Shown here: positions 30,498 through 38,445 of the stretch, in pieces | Layout of the letters: each line of letters opens with the position of its first letter | Position numbering within the stretch: position 1 is the stretch's first letter | Source: Clostridiales bacterium | Lineage (GTDB): Bacteria > Bacillota > Clostridia > Oscillospirales > Oscillospiraceae | Reading direction: 5' to 3' | Assembly (NCBI GenBank): GCA_021202515.1 | Contig: JAJQCW010000003.1 | Location: forward strand, 114,078-178,077 | Length of the DNA stretch: 64,000 nucleotides | Program-made: the position numbers and the translations under genes | The notes under the pieces: model-generated | Database searches by the model: none | Told to the model about the DNA's origin: nothing | The model's input: the letters and a program-made list of their open reading frames with translations, nothing else

Positions 30498-30540
30498 AAC
30501 AGCCGTTAAAATTGCCAGTTGATTTGGCTGACGCAGAACG

Positions 30541-30590
30541 AACCCCCTCTTGAACCTGGCTTATGCCGGGCAAGAGGGGGTTGTTTGTTA
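30541..30590. terminator. Terminator between convergent genes
   Basis: AACCCCCTCTTG...CAAGAGGGGGTT then GTTTGTT. Confidence 0.85.
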
Positions 30591-30618
30591 GAGAATCTTA
30601 ACCTTTAACGTTGGGATT

Positions 30619-33600
30619 TTATTTTTTGATGGTCACAGTCTTGACCTTGCTCCAACCGGCGTAAGAGGTCACGCTGCGGTCGGTCTTGTAGGGCCGCATA
30701 CGGATGTAGTACTTCTTACCCTTAGTCAGGTTCTTCAAAGTGGTGGTAACGTTCTTGTTGCCCTTGACCGTGACGGTCTTGGCACCGGAGAAGTCGCTGG
30801 AAGTGGAATACTCGATGATGTAGCCGGTGGCCTTGGTGTTCCGGGTCCACTTGAGGCTGATCTTCTTGCTGCTGACGTTTTTAGCACGAGTGAACTTCTT
30901 GGCGGTCAGACGGTAGATGGTCTCAGTGGCGGAAGCCTTGCTCTTGCCGGCCTCGTTCACTGCATACACCTTGTACTGATACTTGGTGCCGTTCTTGGTG
31001 GCGGCGGTATCCGTCCAGGAGGTGCTGGAGGTGGTCTTGACCTTCTTCCAACTGCCGCTGCCGATTTTACGATAAACCTGGTAGCTGGTGGCGTTGTCCA
31101 CAGCGTCCCAAGTGAGTTTAATGCCGTTGGCCTTATTTACTACGGAGGTGATTTCCGTGGCGGCGGGAACGGTGACTTTCTCTTCCAACGCGTCAATGGC
31201 GCTGGTCAGAGCGGCGGCGGCCTCATCCACCTCTGTCTGGGCGGCGGAATCGTTGGCTGCGACTGCTTTGGCAGTCTCCAACGCGGCCTGCATTGCGGCC
31301 CAACTGTCAGCGGTATAATCGCTTTCGGTCAGGGTCTCGGCTTTTTCGATGGCGGCGGTCAGAGCGGCGGTGTCAACCGTTTCGCCTTCCGCATTCATCG
31401 CTTTCAGGAAGTGCTCGCTGTGCATGATCATGGAGCGGTCCAGGGAAGCCATATAAAATGCGCTGTTATGTCCGCCGTCACGAAGATCGTAGCCGTGTTC
31501 AATGCCCATGCTTTCCAGGTATTCGTGAATGGCAACCGTGCCCTGGTAATCGACCATCGTATCCTGGAGACCACAGTCGATGTAAAAGTCGTAGTTGGCC
31601 AGCTCTTCTGCGGACAAGGATTTCAGGCTCTCCAGGGCATCCTCCGGCAGGTATCCCATATGACTGGCAATGGAAGAATACAATTCGGGGAACGAGGTGC
31701 CAATCGTCATGGCGCCGTAACCGCCCATGGAGATACCGGTCAGCCCCCGGTATTTTGCGTCGCTGAGGATGCGGTAGGTACTTTCCGCCTCTTCGCGGAT
31801 CTCCGTTGTGATATGGGTCTGCCACGGGCCGGTGGAGTCGGTATTCGACGCGTCAAGCTCCGTATCGCGGTAGAAGCTGTTTTTGCCGGAATCGGGCATG
31901 ATGACGATCATGTCAATGATTTGACCGCTGCTGATCAGGTCGTCCATAAAGGATTCGATTCCGTCTACGTTGATGAAAGAACTGCTGCTGGAGTTAATGC
32001 CGTGAAGCAGGTAAACGACAGGATAATACTGGTCCGTGTTCTCATAATAGGAGGGCGGCAGGTAGACGCTGTAGGTCAGTTCTGTGGAAAACAGCGTGGA
32101 ATCATATGTGACGGTATAGCAACGGCTGTAGTTGCCGCGCTCGTACATGACATCCTCAATGAGGGTATAGCACTGTTCGATATCTTCGGAGAAAATGGTT
32201 TCTGCCGTATCGGAATCAGCGGCGACGCCGGTGATGGTGCGAATGGCGTGGTACCAATAAGCGCCGTCGTCGTCCACATAATAGCCTACGTCTTCGTCTG
32301 TCACCTGAATGTTGCTATAACCGTCCAGGACTGCGGCGATTTCCGCAACGCGGCCTTCCTTGTCCACGCCGTCATTGTTATAGGCGTCATAAACCGTAGC
32401 CGCATAGTCGTCCATATTCTGAGATTCGATTGCAGCGACCTGCTGTTCGATCACCTGCCGGAAAGAGTCCAGGTCTACGGTTTCCGTTGCAAGCCCTTTG
32501 GCGGCGCGAACCGCCGTGTCATTGCCGCAAATCGCGTAGACATTGCCGGAGTAGAAGCCTCCGTAACCGTTGTTGTTATAGAGACGAATACAGATTTCAT
32601 TGGTCCCGCCGAGGTTCAGGTACTCCGTCGGGATCTCATACTCTCTGGAAACCTCCCAGTATGACTTTTCAAATTTTACCTGGGATTCAGCGGATACGCT
32701 GCTGTCGTACACAAATCCGCCTGTTTCCGCAATGGCTGTCGTTGCGTTGCCGCTGCCATCCATAAAACCGCTGGCCGCGACCAGATGGCCGTTGATATAA
32801 ACAACGTCCAGATCGTCGATAATGCCGAGCAGCAAAGTGACCGTTTCCTCTTCTGTAAAATCGGAGGGCAGCTCAAAGGTCCGGCAGACCCACGCCTCAG
32901 ACCAACTCGGCAGCATCACCGACATGGGGTCGAAGGTATCTTCCTCTTCGCTTTCGGTATCGCTGGCCGTGACCAGGGCAGCGTCAGCGTCCGACTCGTC
33001 AGCGGAGACATCAGCCTGTGTTTCTTCTCCGGCGTCAGCGCCGGTTTCTTCGGCAGGGACAGCCTCGTCGGAATTGGTATCAGCACTTTCAGCAGCATCC
33101 TCAAAAGGTTCTGCCTCTTCCTCGGCGTCGTTCTCAATCTCTGCTGACTCTGCCTCACCAGCGGTACCGTCATCGGCGGGTTCTGCTTCGTCAGCAGCGC
33201 CGTCGTCGGAAGCTGCTGGTTCATCCGTCACTTCCCCGGCGGAATCATCGTTGGACGCGGCCGCCTCGTCATCAGCGCTGTCATCAGTGGCTTCTGTTTC
33301 GTCAGCAGCGGCATCGTCGGCAGCCACAACTTCCTCAGCAACACCCGCGTCAGAAACCACAGCTTCTTCCACCGAGGCAGTGTCGGAAGCCGCCGCGCTG
33401 CTCTCTGTCTCTTCCGTGGTTTCCCGCTCCAGGGGCAGGAGACCGCCGGTCGTGATGTCGTCATAGGGCATAGACACGGTTTCCCACGTGCTAAAGTCTG
33501 AGACACTGGGAAGCAGCGCAGTTTCATTGTCCTCCCACGTGATCTCCACCATGTTGTACGGAAGGTATTGGAACATTCTGCTATAGGTGCGGTACAGCTT

Positions 33601-33738
33601 GAAATTCCATTCGCCGTCCAGGTTGACGTACTGGTTCGCGTCATCGCTTTCGACGCTTTCCGCAGCAAGGGCAGAAAACGGCGTCACGGTTGTGAAAACC
33701 AACGCTATTGCCAACAGATACGCACACAATCTTTTCAT
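30619..33738 (-). CDS. Secreted multidomain esterase: split sugar-binding-like N-terminus with acidic insertion, alpha/beta-hydrolase esterase, FIVAR-like, C-terminal Fn3-like repeats
   Basis: Signal peptide MKRLCAYLLAIALVFTTVTPFSALA; YPVVYLLHGI, GISMGGYGAM, DGGHNSAFY; C-terminal Fn3-type TEITSVVNKANGIKLTWDAVDNATSYQVYRK. Confidence 0.8.
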   Translation of the reverse strand: MKRLCAYLLAIALVFTTVTPFSALAAESVESDDANQYVNLDGEWNFKLYRTYSRMFQYLPYNMVEITWEDNETALLPSVSDFSTWETVSMPYDDITTGGLLPLERETTEETESSAAASDTASVEEAVVSDAGVAEEVVAADDAAADETEATDDSADDEAAASNDDSAGEVTDEPAASDDGAADEAEPADDGTAGEAESAEIENDAEEEAEPFEDAAESADTNSDEAVPAEETGADAGEETQADVSADESDADAALVTASDTESEEEDTFDPMSVMLPSWSEAWVCRTFELPSDFTEEETVTLLLGIIDDLDVVYINGHLVAASGFMDGSGNATTAIAETGGFVYDSSVSAESQVKFEKSYWEVSREYEIPTEYLNLGGTNEICIRLYNNNGYGGFYSGNVYAICGNDTAVRAAKGLATETVDLDSFRQVIEQQVAAIESQNMDDYAATVYDAYNNDGVDKEGRVAEIAAVLDGYSNIQVTDEDVGYYVDDDGAYWYHAIRTITGVAADSDTAETIFSEDIEQCYTLIEDVMYERGNYSRCYTVTYDSTLFSTELTYSVYLPPSYYENTDQYYPVVYLLHGINSSSSSFINVDGIESFMDDLISSGQIIDMIVIMPDSGKNSFYRDTELDASNTDSTGPWQTHITTEIREEAESTYRILSDAKYRGLTGISMGGYGAMTIGTSFPELYSSIASHMGYLPEDALESLKSLSAEELANYDFYIDCGLQDTMVDYQGTVAIHEYLESMGIEHGYDLRDGGHNSAFYMASLDRSMIMHSEHFLKAMNAEGETVDTAALTAAIEKAETLTESDYTADSWAAMQAALETAKAVAANDSAAQTEVDEAAAALTSAIDALEEKVTVPAATEITSVVNKANGIKLTWDAVDNATSYQVYRKIGSGSWKKVKTTSSTSWTDTAATKNGTKYQYKVYAVNEAGKSKASATETIYRLTAKKFTRAKNVSSKKISLKWTRNTKATGYIIEYSTSSDFSGAKTVTVKGNKNVTTTLKNLTKGKKYYIRMRPYKTDRSVTSYAGWSKVKTVTIKK

Positions 33739-33775
33739 ATAATTCTCCTTTTTGCAAACTGGTTAAAAAAGCGTT

Positions 33776-33881
33776 AAAAAAACAATTCCAACACGCTCGG
33801 TCTATTTGGCAGGAAGCTGCCCAATAGGACAATGAACGATTTGACTATTGGGCAGCTTTATAAACGAAGGAGTTGGAATTG
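33776..33881 (-). promoter_or_regulatory. Nested inverted repeats ending in a U-tract (terminator or attenuator candidate)
   Basis: Outer 10-bp CAATTCCAAC/GTTGGAATTG and inner 14-bp AAGCTGCCCAATAG/CTATTGGGCAGCTT; on the minus strand the outer arm is followed by T7. Confidence 0.6.
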
Positions 33882-33922
33882 AAGCAAACATGCTCCGGGG
33901 AACCCAGAGATTGTAATGTGGT

Positions 33923-35041
33923 TTATCGCATGGACTGGTACATCTCGTCCAGCATGGCGTCGGTGATCTCAACAGGGTTGTTGTACAGGTTAGGGTGGCG
34001 GCTGATGCGGACCAGGTCGGCCACCTGCTCGTCGGTCAGGTTGTACTCCTTCAGGTCGGTGCGCAGGCCCACGTCCACCTTGAGCTGGTGAATGGCGTCG
34101 GCCATGTCGTACATATCCTTGAAGCCCAGCTCACGGGCAAAGGCGTGGATGCGCCCGTCCTGAGCGTCGGCGTTGATGCGGGCGAAATAGTCCAGGGTCA
34201 GGCCGCAGGCTTCGCCGTGGGGGATGTGCAGCAGGTTGGTCAGCGGGAAGGAGCAGGCGTGGGAGCTGGTGGTCTTGGGCAGAGTGAACGCCAGACCAGC
34301 GATGACCGACGCCTCGGCCATCTTGGACCGGGCCTCCTGGTTCTGCGGCTCCTTAACGGCGGTGCGCAGGGTCTCAAAGACGATTTTTGCCGCGTGGAGC
34401 GCCAGCGCGTCGCAGATGGGCTGGTGGCCCTTGCTCCAGAAGCCCTCCACCGCGTGGCACAGCACATCGATGCCGGTGCTGGCAGTCATGTAGGGGGGCA
34501 GGGTGTAGGTCAACTCCGGGTCGATCAGGGCGATGGCGGGGTAAAAGGCGTTGGAGTTGATGGGGCCTTTCTTGCCCAGCGCCTTGTCGCTGAGGACGGA
34601 GACGCAGGTGACCTCGCTGCCGGTGCCGGCTGTGGTGGGGATGGCCACCAGGGGCAGATGCTCCTGGGGCATGGGGACGCCGGTGCCGTGGTACTTGCGG
34701 ATGGAGTCCTCAGTGAAGCAGACAGAACCGGCAGCTTTGGCGCAGTCCAGGGCGCTGCCGCCGCCCAGGGCCACCAGGAAGTCGATGTTATTCTCCCGGA
34801 TCTGCTGGGCGCAGGCGTCCACCTCGGTGACCTCCGGGTTGGGGGAGACCTGGCTGTAAATGCCCACCAGCGCGCCGTCGCTGGCGGCGACGATCTGCTC
34901 CGCCAGACCGCTCTTCATAAAGAAGGGGTCGCTGACCAGCAGGCCCCGGTCACAGTGGAGAGATTCTGCAACGTTTTTCAGCTCTTTCACGATACCCGCG
35001 CCAAAGCGGATGGTAACTGGCTGTAAATATTCCCATTCCAT
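33923..35041 (-). CDS. Iron-containing alcohol dehydrogenase
   Basis: IRFGAGIVKEL, VALGGGSALDCAKA, IPTTAGTGSEVT, GIDVLCHAVEGFWS, HGEACGL. Confidence 0.92.
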   Translation of the reverse strand: MEWEYLQPVTIRFGAGIVKELKNVAESLHCDRGLLVSDPFFMKSGLAEQIVAASDGALVGIYSQVSPNPEVTEVDACAQQIRENNIDFLVALGGGSALDCAKAAGSVCFTEDSIRKYHGTGVPMPQEHLPLVAIPTTAGTGSEVTCVSVLSDKALGKKGPINSNAFYPAIALIDPELTYTLPPYMTASTGIDVLCHAVEGFWSKGHQPICDALALHAAKIVFETLRTAVKEPQNQEARSKMAEASVIAGLAFTLPKTTSSHACSFPLTNLLHIPHGEACGLTLDYFARINADAQDGRIHAFARELGFKDMYDMADAIHQLKVDVGLRTDLKEYNLTDEQVADLVRISRHPNLYNNPVEITDAMLDEMYQSMR

Positions 35042-35118
35042 GAGTGCTATCCTCCTAAAAATTCAGATTTAGCGAATCCGGCCCGCAGGAAAAACCGCGG
35101 ACCGGATGGATACAGTGT

Positions 35119-36084
35119 TTATTTCCGGGCGAGGACCTTCTTGGTCTTGGAGACGATTTCGTCAGCGGTCAGCTTGAAGCGCTGAGCCAGGTAATCCACC
35201 TGTCCCACTTCGCCGAACTCGTCCTGGACGCCCACCATCTCCAGAGGAGCAGGGCAGTTCAGCGCCAGGGTGGAGGCCACGGCGGAGCCGAGGCCGTTGC
35301 GGATGTTGTGGTTCTCGGCGGTGACGATGGCGCCGGTCTCCTTGGCAGCGGCCACCACAGCGGCCTCATCCAGGGGTTTCAGGCACCACATATCCACCAC
35401 GCGGGCGGAGATGCCTTCGGCGGCCAGCATATCGGCGGCCTTCAGCGCTTCGGCCACCAAATAGCCGATGGCAAAGATGGTCACGTCGGTGCCCTCCCGC
35501 AGCAGGCAGGACTTGCCCACGGCGAACTCGCTCTCCGCCTCGTAGATGACGGGGGCGGGCTTCCGGTGCAGACGGATGTACCAGGTGCCGTAGGTCTCCT
35601 TGGCCAAACGGACGATTTTGCCCAGGGAGACGGCGTCGCAGGCTTCCACTACGGTCATTTCGGGGATGGTGGACATGATGCCCAGGTCCTCAAAGGGCAT
35701 ATGGGTGCCGCCGTTCAGGGCGGCGGTGATGCCGGGGTCGGAACCCACCACCTTCACGTTCTGCTTGGCGTAGGCGCAGGACATGAAGATCTGGTCGCAG
35801 GCACGACGGGAGGCGAAGGGGCCAAAGGTGTGGGTGAAGGGGATGAAGCCGCGGGAGGACAGGCCGGCGGCCACACCGATCATGTTGGCCTCCTGCACGC
35901 CGCAGTCAAAGGTCCGTTCGGGATACGCCGCACGGAAGGGCTTGGTGCCCGCCGCGTTCATCAGGTCGGCGTCCAGCACCACGACGCGGTTATCTTCTCC
36001 GGCCATCTCCAGCAGGGTGTCGCAGAACACCTTGCGCAGCTCGACCTTGCCCATCTCATGGGTGGCAGCAACTTTTACGCTCAT
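35119..36084 (-). CDS. Transketolase C-terminal subunit
   Basis: 321 aa; RKVFCDTLLEMAGEDNRVVVLDADL...TFDCGVQEANMIGVAAGLSSRG...VTAENHNIRNGLGSAVA. Confidence 0.92.
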   Translation of the reverse strand: MSVKVAATHEMGKVELRKVFCDTLLEMAGEDNRVVVLDADLMNAAGTKPFRAAYPERTFDCGVQEANMIGVAAGLSSRGFIPFTHTFGPFASRRACDQIFMSCAYAKQNVKVVGSDPGITAALNGGTHMPFEDLGIMSTIPEMTVVEACDAVSLGKIVRLAKETYGTWYIRLHRKPAPVIYEAESEFAVGKSCLLREGTDVTIFAIGYLVAEALKAADMLAAEGISARVVDMWCLKPLDEAAVVAAAKETGAIVTAENHNIRNGLGSAVASTLALNCPAPLEMVGVQDEFGEVGQVDYLAQRFKLTADEIVSKTKKVLARK

Positions 36085-36103
36085 GACAGTCGTCCTCCTT
36101 CGC

Positions 36104-36934
36104 TCAAAGGGCCTGGAGCTGGGCGTCCAGCTCGGCCAGGGCCTCGTCCACCATTTCGGCGGAAACAGGCATATTGTGGGAACCCAACGCGCCCTCGATC
36201 TTGCTGTAGCCCTTGCCCTTGACGGTGCTCAGCACGATGACGGAGGGCTTGTCGCTCTGGGCCTTGGCGTTGGCAATGGCCGCGGCGATCTGCTCCACGT
36301 CGTTGCCGTCCTCAACGGTCTGGGCGTACCAGCCGAAGCTGTCGAACTTCTGGGCGATGTCGCCCAGGGCGCACAGATTCTGCACGTAGTCGTCGATCTG
36401 GCACTTGTTGTAGTCCACGAAGGCGATGACCTTGGTGAGCTTCTTCGCGGCGGCGAAGAGCGCGGCCTCCCAGACCTGGCCCTCTTCGATCTCGCCGTCG
36501 CCCATAATCAGGTAAGTATAGTTGTCATACCCCTTGAGGCGGTTGGCGCAGGCGATGCCCATGGCGGAGCTGGCGCCCTGGCCCAGGGAGCCGGTGGTCA
36601 TGTCGATGCCGGGAGTGCGGTTCATGTCGCAGTGGCTGGGCAGGTTGGTGCCGGGCTTGTTCAGGGTGCTGAGCATTTCCATGGGGAAGTAGCCCTTCAA
36701 AGCCAGGGTGGAATAGACGGCGGGTCCGGCGTGGCCCTTGGAGACCACCAGCATATCCCGGTCGTCCTTCTTGGGGTTGCTGGGGTCGATGTTCATCTCA
36801 CCGCTGTACAGCACAGCCAGCACGTCCACGATGGACAGCGCACCGCCGATGTGGCCCACGCCCAGGTTGCCGATGCACTTGATGGTTTCCTTGCGAATGT
36901 CGATCGCAAATTTTTTGACTTCGTTCACATTCAT
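36104..36934 (-). CDS. Transketolase N-terminal subunit
   Basis: GNLGVGHIGGALSIVDVLAVLY...GSLGQGASSAMGIA...MGDGEIEEGQVWEAALFA; start 36934. Confidence 0.92.
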   Translation of the reverse strand: MNVNEVKKFAIDIRKETIKCIGNLGVGHIGGALSIVDVLAVLYSGEMNIDPSNPKKDDRDMLVVSKGHAGPAVYSTLALKGYFPMEMLSTLNKPGTNLPSHCDMNRTPGIDMTTGSLGQGASSAMGIACANRLKGYDNYTYLIMGDGEIEEGQVWEAALFAAAKKLTKVIAFVDYNKCQIDDYVQNLCALGDIAQKFDSFGWYAQTVEDGNDVEQIAAAIANAKAQSDKPSVIVLSTVKGKGYSKIEGALGSHNMPVSAEMVDEALAELDAQLQAL

Positions 36935-36963
36935 AGCAATGCGTCCTTTCCGATGTTGCGGCC

Positions 36964-37452
36964 TCAGCCGTAAATCTCCTGCTCCACAGCCTGAACCTTC
37001 TCCTTCGCGCCCTTCAGGAACTCCTGACGCCAAGGCTCCAGGTCCTGTCCAAACTCGGTGGTCAGGAAGGTGTCCACCATCTGGAGCGGCATGGACAGGG
37101 CGCTGTCGTCACAGGTGAGCTTGCAGCCGCCCATGGTCATGATGTTGGCGTCGTTGATGGCGCGGCACATCTTGGCGTCGTAGGTGTCGCCGCAGAGAAC
37201 GGCGTAGACGCCCTTGTACTTGTTGGCCAGGATCTCCATGCCTGCGCCGGTGCCGCAGATCAGGATGCCCCGCTCAAATTCACCGCTGGAGACGCGGGAA
37301 GCCACGGCAGGCGCCGTCACGAAGAAGGGCTTCACATGATCCAGGTCCTGGGTGCCGCCGTCCTCCACTTCGTACCCCTGGGCGATCAGGTGGGCCTTGA
37401 CCGTCTCTTTCAGGGTAAAGCCGGACTTGTCCGAGCCGATGATCACTTTCAT
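36964..37452 (-). CDS. RpiB/LacAB-family sugar isomerase, divergent
   Basis: MKVIIGSDKSGFTLKETVKAHLIAQGYEVEDGGTQ...GILICGTGAGMEILANKYKGVYAVLC. Confidence 0.88.
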   Translation of the reverse strand: MKVIIGSDKSGFTLKETVKAHLIAQGYEVEDGGTQDLDHVKPFFVTAPAVASRVSSGEFERGILICGTGAGMEILANKYKGVYAVLCGDTYDAKMCRAINDANIMTMGGCKLTCDDSALSMPLQMVDTFLTTEFGQDLEPWRQEFLKGAKEKVQAVEQEIYG

Positions 37453-37482
37453 AACACATTCTCCTTTTCCGCTTAAAAATTC

Positions 37483-38445
37483 TTATTCTTCCACTGGCGC
37501 GGCTTCATGCCGGTTTTCCAGTAAAATACCAACTGCTCCGGCCAGCACCACCGCCATGCCCAGGTACTGGGAGGGCACCATCACCTCGCCAAACAGGACG
37601 AAGGTGATCAGCGTCGCCACCACCGGCATCAGCAACAGGAAGGTCTTGACCAGCCAAACGGGATAGTTCCGCAAGTTATAGTAGTACACCACATAAATGA
37701 GCGTCTGCCCCAGGCCAGCCAGCGCCAGGGCCAGGGCCGCGTAGGGGTCGGTCAGCACCACGCTGAACTGCCCCAGCGTTCCCATCACCAGCGAGGTGAT
37801 GAGGAAAAAGATCAGGGTAACGAAGTTGTTGTAGTAGGCCACCACGTCGTCGCAGACGGGGTTGACCTTGTCCAGCTCCACGCTTTTGATGACAAAGGCG
37901 TTGCAGGAGACAAAAAAGGCGCTGAGCAGGAAGAAGATGTTGCCGGGGTCGGTGATACTGAAGGAGGCGAAGTCGAACCCCATCACCACGAACACCCCCG
38001 CCAGCATGACGAAGGTACACACCCACGCCCGCAGAGTGAACCGCTGCTTATAGATAAAGACGGACATCACATTGACCATCAGCACGTCGCATTTCAGCAG
38101 CGCGGTGCCGCTGGCCGCCGAGGACAGGGACAGGCCGATGAACGCCGTGAAGTCCAGCAGAAAGCCCAGCGTGCCGATGAGCAGCAGGCGGGGGAGGACC
38201 CCATGCACCTGCTTCAAGAGTGGAAATTCCTTCCGTTTCAGCATGATAATGGTCAGCAGCACCAGCGTGACCAATCGGATACCCACCCCAGAGGTGAAAA
38301 CCGAGGTGTAGCCCACCCACTGCTGGCTGGCCACATAGTAGCTGCCCCAAATCACCGGCAAAATCAGCAGGGAGGTCAGGGAGTTCTTGGATGTTTCCAT
38401 CTTGCGCACCATCCTTATTTGACGCCTTTGGAAAAACCCTTCCAT
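37483..38445 (-). CDS. EamA/DMT-family transporter
   Basis: Multiple TM segments, DMT-like duplication; more likely start at 38400 or 38412. Confidence 0.8.
   Translation of the reverse strand: MEGFFQRRQIRMVRKMETSKNSLTSLLILPVIWGSYYVASQQWVGYTSVFTSGVGIRLVTLVLLTIIMLKRKEFPLLKQVHGVLPRLLLIGTLGFLLDFTAFIGLSLSSAASGTALLKCDVLMVNVMSVFIYKQRFTLRAWVCTFVMLAGVFVVMGFDFASFSITDPGNIFFLLSAFFVSCNAFVIKSVELDKVNPVCDDVVAYYNNFVTLIFFLITSLVMGTLGQFSVVLTDPYAALALALAGLGQTLIYVVYYYNLRNYPVWLVKTFLLLMPVVATLITFVLFGEVMVPSQYLGMAVVLAGAVGILLENRHEAAPVEE

Follow-up and report, generated by a model that had tools for sequence, protein, structure and literature searches.

A predicted sulfo-transketolase operon in an Oscillospiraceae-type gut bacterium, with candidate upper-pathway genes elsewhere on the same contig

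Does an operon that combines a permease, a protein of the RpiB family, a split transketolase and an iron-dependent alcohol dehydrogenase (Fe-ADH) serve ordinary pentose metabolism, or the cleavage of a sulfonated sugar? Green plants supply sulfoquinovose (SQ) as an abundant sulfonate, and the isethionate to which it is converted feeds gut bacteria that produce hydrogen sulfide, such as Bilophila. The genes in question lie in the window, the whole stretch of 64,000 nucleotides that was analysed (C60:114078-178077). We consider it highly probable that they encode the C-C-cleaving, C2-forming half of the sulfo-transketolase (sulfo-TK) pathway of SQ breakdown in an Oscillospiraceae-type gut bacterium, the catalysis being predicted from sequence. 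The pathway is already known: descriptions exist for Clostridium (review: PMC9594981), for Faecalicatena (PMC11659671), for rumen bacteria including Oscillospiraceae (PMC13219744) and for six mouse-gut Oscillibacter MAGs (PMC12330013). What is new here is modest and consists of a split locus, a TctABC partner as candidate sulfosugar importer, and residue marks in SqwI and SqwH.

The five open reading frames are intact, lie on the minus strand with intergenic gaps of 19-77 bp and form a transcription unit spanning 33923-38445. Their Pfam matches are all far above the cut-offs and comprise EamA (PF00892), LacAB_rpiB (PF02502), Transketolase_N, Transket_pyr with Transketolase_C, and Fe-ADH. The genes follow one sigma-70-type promoter, TTGACA-17-TATTAT (38507-38479, minus strand), which agrees with the consensus at 11 of 12 bases and is the top one of five promoter-like matches in the stretch (1.6 expected). 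It is conserved in two near species (L041 and L042), whose DNA is ~91-95% identical to the operon. The first-pass annotation had described exactly this arrangement of five minus-strand genes behind one promoter, and its gene coordinates stand, but the range that it gave for the locus (36104-38445) covers only three of the genes. In addition, the EamA gene probably starts at the ATG at 38400 and not at 38445, to which its reading frame is open, as judged from the alignment with L043. A terminator-like hairpin with a 7-pair stem and a T-rich tail is located 3' of the Fe-ADH gene (33909-33893, minus strand); this is a weak signal, since chance alone would give 4.7 such sites in the stretch and fewer are seen. 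Directly after the operon follows a 3.4 kb stretch (30499-33921) with a single minus-strand gene (30619-33738), whose secreted-looking product of 1039 aa carries esterase, FIVAR and fibronectin type III domains. This 3.4 kb stretch is missing at the corresponding place in L041 and L042.

The second gene (36964-37452, minus strand) encodes a PF02502 protein of the RpiB/LacAB family that is predicted, from its clade and residues, to be an SqwI-type 4-deoxy-4-sulfoerythrose isomerase. It scores below every equivalog cut-off for RpiB, LacA, LacB and erythrulose-phosphate isomerase. In 298 genomes of the order, three proteins with 45-50% identity to it (L003-L005) ranked above the canonical RpiBs, and 80 loci were recovered from 85,488 species genomes that were scanned, the best with 99-100% and 72-78% identity and the weakest with ~48%. 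In a tree of 93 rows, including 25 RpiBs of the order and E. coli RpiB, the window protein groups with proteins from sulfo-TK clusters, and the branch that separates it and its SqwI relatives from the canonical RpiBs has an SH-aLRT of 100. Phylogeny thus bears out the divergence of the RpiB-like protein that had been claimed earlier, and the clustering with canonical RpiB that had been named as counterevidence did not occur.

The window protein shares with E. coli RpiB the fold family and the catalytic Cys66 and Thr68, which are kept in all members of the tree. However, of the residues that define canonical RpiB, namely the ring-opening His99 and the phosphate-binding His10, Arg133 and Arg137, only Arg137 is retained, with His99 being replaced by Ile, His10 by Lys and Arg133 by Leu. 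All 25 canonical proteins carry His99, and the 64 SqwI-type proteins, the window's counted, carry Ile (61) or Val (3) at this position. In RpiB, opening of the sugar ring precedes isomerisation. The H99N exchange lowers the kcat of the E. coli enzyme 26-fold (PMC4783025). The loss of His99 would fit the predicted substrate, since 4-deoxy-4-sulfoerythrose has no 4-hydroxyl and should be unable to form a furanose ring. Tree and residues strongly support the assignment of the window protein to the SqwI type rather than to canonical RpiB, and the His99 pattern offers a testable reason for the specificity of SqwI, an enzyme whose activity lacks direct demonstration (PMC9594981).

The next two genes encode the N-terminal, thiamine diphosphate subunit SqwG (36104-36934, minus strand) and the C-terminal subunit SqwH (35119-36084, minus strand) of a putative split sulfofructose transketolase. 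SqwG is assigned by its Transketolase_N domain and by its identities, which amount to 79-99% within the clade, 52-58% to most other sulfo-TK loci and 41-42% to its own paralogues. For SqwH the assignment comes from the residues around the substrate: the phosphate is oriented by RSFHR in canonical transketolases, while sulfofructose transketolases carry RAFDR (Borusak et al., PMC11659671). The window SqwH (P0003) has RAFDR as R17, A44, F87, D116 and R174. Canonical transketolases are marked by His461 and Asp469 (E. coli TktA numbering), in place of which P0003 has Asp116 and Asn124. His461 is replaced by Asp in 66 of 66 related SqwH-type proteins and Asp469 by Asn likewise in 66/66; the genome's two other split transketolases, on contigs C22 and C79, retain the equivalents of both residues. 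Furthermore, the window transketolase falls below the cut-off of all transketolase equivalog models and is, by these sequence features, of the sulfofructose type. The D469N exchange of the sulfo-type SqwH subunits is an addition to the published RAFDR motif. An SqwI without His99 and an SqwH with the Asp/Asn pair tell sulfo-type from ordinary enzymes by sequence alone.

These residues bear directly on the possibility of an ordinary pentose-phosphate or pentose-utilisation operon, composed of a true RpiB, a housekeeping transketolase and an unrelated alcohol dehydrogenase and permease. The Pfam families would be identical, and the assembly (97.55% complete) contains only one PF02502 gene, that of the window, with neither a canonical RpiB nor an RpiA, which could in theory make the window protein the sole ribose-5-phosphate isomerase. 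However, a separate canonical RpiB is present in the near species G298 and G299 and in G263 of the same genus, and the one canonical RpiB that was read from these near-species and same-genus genomes has the equivalents of His10 and His99. The 4 kb around the RpiB of G299 have no counterpart anywhere in this assembly, and the absence of the whole region suggests an assembly gap rather than a dual-function enzyme. Since the window protein also lies outside canonical RpiB in the tree and has lost His99, His10 and Arg133, since the transketolase carries H461D and D469N, since both score below all RpiB and transketolase equivalog cut-offs, and since sulfoglycolysis genes are their partners, a canonical pentose-phosphate operon was rejected on tree, residues and neighbours as very improbable.

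No SQ isomerase or sulfoquinovosidase is visible in the window, as had been remarked in the first-pass annotation, and both were found on the same contig. A second locus at 72.6-80.5 kb of C60, about 68-70 kb from the operon (~148.0-152.5 kb), contains SqvB, YihQ, TctC, TctB, TctA and SqvD on one strand. SqvB (C60:72747-73355) is a DUF4867 protein with a score of 253 bits. The sulfoquinovosidase YihQ (C60:73421-75424) has 51% identity to its E. coli counterpart YihQ and retains Gln288, Arg301, Trp304, Asp405, Asp472 and Tyr508, of which Arg301, Trp304 and Tyr508 are the sulfonate-binding residues of YihQ; two other GH31 proteins of the genome are devoid of Gln288, Arg301, Trp304 and Tyr508. 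The SQ isomerase SqvD (C60:79165-80499) matches the SqvD alignment with an E value of 8e-210 and is 79% identical to the L043 SqvD, and its sole NCBIfam match is the SQ isomerase SftI with 410 bits, below the 700-bit equivalog cut-off. No transaldolase adjoins the window genes or occurs within the upper locus. Comparison of the upstream regions of the two halves gave no convincing common motif that could act as a shared operator; A/T-rich repeats immediately follow the operon's -10 box and also lie ahead of sqvB. No regulator is linked to the loci, the nearest ROK homologue being on a different contig. A second DUF4867 protein is encoded on contig C53 of the same genome (L128 8820-9503) in a separate gene cluster, together with a GPH-type symporter fragment, a short-chain dehydrogenase, a LacI-like regulator and an ABC transporter, which suggests that DUF4867 is not limited to sulfosugars. 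Taken together, the SqwI clade, the RAFDR motif and the presence of SqvD and YihQ in the genome strongly support the earlier proposal of a sulfo-TK pathway, as far as sequence can do so.

Reduction of the C2 sulfonate and its export are predicted for the outer genes of the operon. The Fe-ADH gene (33923-35041, minus strand) encodes an SqwF-like protein with Fe-ADH domains, a candidate NADH-dependent sulfoacetaldehyde reductase whose substrate is deduced from context. Its identity is 76-98% within the clade and 35-54% to other sulfo-TK loci, with 39-40% to the Fe-ADHs of the Faecalicatena and C. sporosphaeroides clusters, and against the SarD model NF050025 it reaches 212 bits, below the equivalog cut-off of 700. 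The candidate role as SqwF is the least certain assignment and the weakest link of the scheme. The EamA/DMT-family permease (37483-38400, minus strand), with two EamA stretches in Pfam, is a candidate SqwE-like exporter that would move isethionate outward. A drug/metabolite permease is also included in the SQ cluster of Faecalicatena (PMC11659671). Heading the operon, the EamA gene may take the role that TauE has in the Oscillibacter loci L045 and L046.

The gene set, its intact frames, the family placement, the diagnostic residues and the presence of the whole set in the genome are read from the DNA, and from them we infer all catalytic steps, the directions in which the two transporters work and a co-regulation of the two loci. 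In the proposed pathway, TctCBA would import SQ or an SQ glycoside, YihQ would release SQ from the glycoside and SqvD would convert SQ to sulfofructose. SqwGH would then transfer a two-carbon ketol from sulfofructose to glyceraldehyde-3-phosphate, yielding xylulose-5-phosphate and 4-deoxy-4-sulfoerythrose, which SqwI would isomerise to 4-deoxy-4-sulfoerythrulose. A second ketol would be taken off the latter by SqwGH to give sulfoacetaldehyde, which the Fe-ADH would reduce to isethionate with regeneration of NAD+, and isethionate would leave through the EamA permease. A kinase would be unnecessary because the sulfonate replaces the phosphate. A more tentative idea, to which we give slightly less than an even chance, is that the clade imports its sulfosugar by TctABC and that SqwI has become dedicated to isomerising an acyclic sulfotetrose, having lost the ring-opening His because a substrate that lacks the 4-hydroxyl forms no ring.

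A lower pathway of the sulfo-TK type could also act on another sulfonated sugar or polyol. This may hold for loci of Agathobaculum massiliense (L047), Acetanaerobacterium elongatum (L048), Anaerotruncus massiliensis (L049) and Blautia sp. An249 (L098), in which SqwI and a split SqwGH-type transketolase are paired with an SsuA-like sulfonate ABC transporter and a zinc-dependent dehydrogenase. No close SQ isomerase or YihQ was found in these four genomes, and they may represent a sulfo-TK variant that is entered from a different sulfonate; L047 has a transketolase with 72% identity to that of the window. However, the genome of the window has SqvD, SqvB and YihQ, and in the relatives with 72-73% SqwI identity these are contiguous with the operon genes, which makes a substrate other than SQ very unlikely here. 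A route for erythritol, apiose or another polyol, non-phosphorylated and with no sulfonate link, to which erythrulose-4-phosphate as an RpiB-family substrate and a weak match to the model of its isomerase (88 bits against a cut-off of 240) might point, is hardly credible given an operon without a kinase, a transketolase with sulfonate-type residues and a genome with orthologues of YihQ and SqvD.

Sulfo-TK cleavage of SQ as the preferred reading agrees with the company that SqwI keeps in other genomes. In a clustering of ORFs that also included the window and three additional loci, and in which contig ends depress the counts, its partners are the C-terminal transketolase part (66 loci), Fe-ADH (61), SqvD-like proteins (60), the N-terminal transketolase part (57), EamA (48), a ROK regulator (46), GH31 (42) and DUF4867 (41); by tblastn, 61 of the 80 loci have SqvD, 43 have SqvB and 43 have YihQ. 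Faecalicatena contorta (L057), Faecalispora jeddahensis (L050) and Clostridium sporosphaeroides (L051) are among the named hosts. The gene order of L050 and L051 agrees with the numbering that has been given to the genes of Clostridium sp. MSTE9, the archetype, in which (last digits) SqvD is 426, SqwG 430, SqwH 431, SqwI 432 and the ABC permease 437; gene 434, there named SQ mutarotase, corresponds by position to SqvB. Enzyme families and steps of MSTE9 (SqvD, SqwGH, SqwI, SqwF, SqwE) are the same as those assigned here, whereas the window locus differs in being split from the upper half, in its EamA-type exporter and in having TctCBA instead of a sugar ABC transporter. The window Fe-ADH is ~39% identical to the Fe-ADH of the MSTE9-like loci L050 and L051.

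The closest relatives with a joined locus are the Oscillibacter loci L045 and L046, with identities of 72-73% for SqwI, 85-86% for SqwG, 83-84% for SqwH and 83-84% for SqwF. Like the genome of the window they have TctCBA and SqvD, but all genes form one contiguous cluster on a single contig (SqwI-SqwG-SqwH-Fe-ADH-SqvB-YihQ-TauE-TctC-TctB-TctA-SqvD), with TauE instead of EamA and an adjoining ROK regulator. In G298 and G299, two near species, the operon does not share a contig with SqvD or YihQ. Sulfo-TK gene sets can thus sit in distant halves, and surveys that demand one cluster will miss such carriers. The bifurcated sulfo-TK/sulfo-TAL cluster of Faecalicatena (PMC11659671; L057) shares SqwGH, SqwI, Fe-ADH, a DMT permease and RAFDR with the window, but a transaldolase is missing both beside the window genes and from the upper locus. 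Rumen Ca. Limivicinus and Caproiciproducens share SqwG, SqwH, SqwI, SqwF, SqwE and DUF4867, and isethionate is a product in rumen microcosms (PMC13219744). The Oscillospiraceae rumen loci that were fetched differ in gene order, and uptake in the rumen systems is via SmoEFGH-type or other transporters.

Most other clusters use a GPH symporter or an ABC transporter for sugars, and of the 80 loci that were fetched only 3 have relatives of TctA. The literature searched held no link between the tripartite tricarboxylate transporter TctABC and sulfoquinovose, the one match concerning a taurine-respiring bacterium. TctC-, TctB- and TctA-like genes also occur in L036 (7048-9960), next to those for a divergent SqwI-like protein and the C-part of a transketolase, and its genome (G195) gave no match to SQ isomerase or YihQ; this set possibly belongs to another sulfonate or sugar-acid route. 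Finally, five sulfo-TK clusters from Erysipelotrichaceae and unclassified Firmicutes MAGs (L099, L100, L102, L104 and L105) carry genes for an aldehyde dehydrogenase and for SucC/SucD-like proteins behind SqwI, in keeping with the variant that forms sulfoacetate (SqwD, SqwKL).
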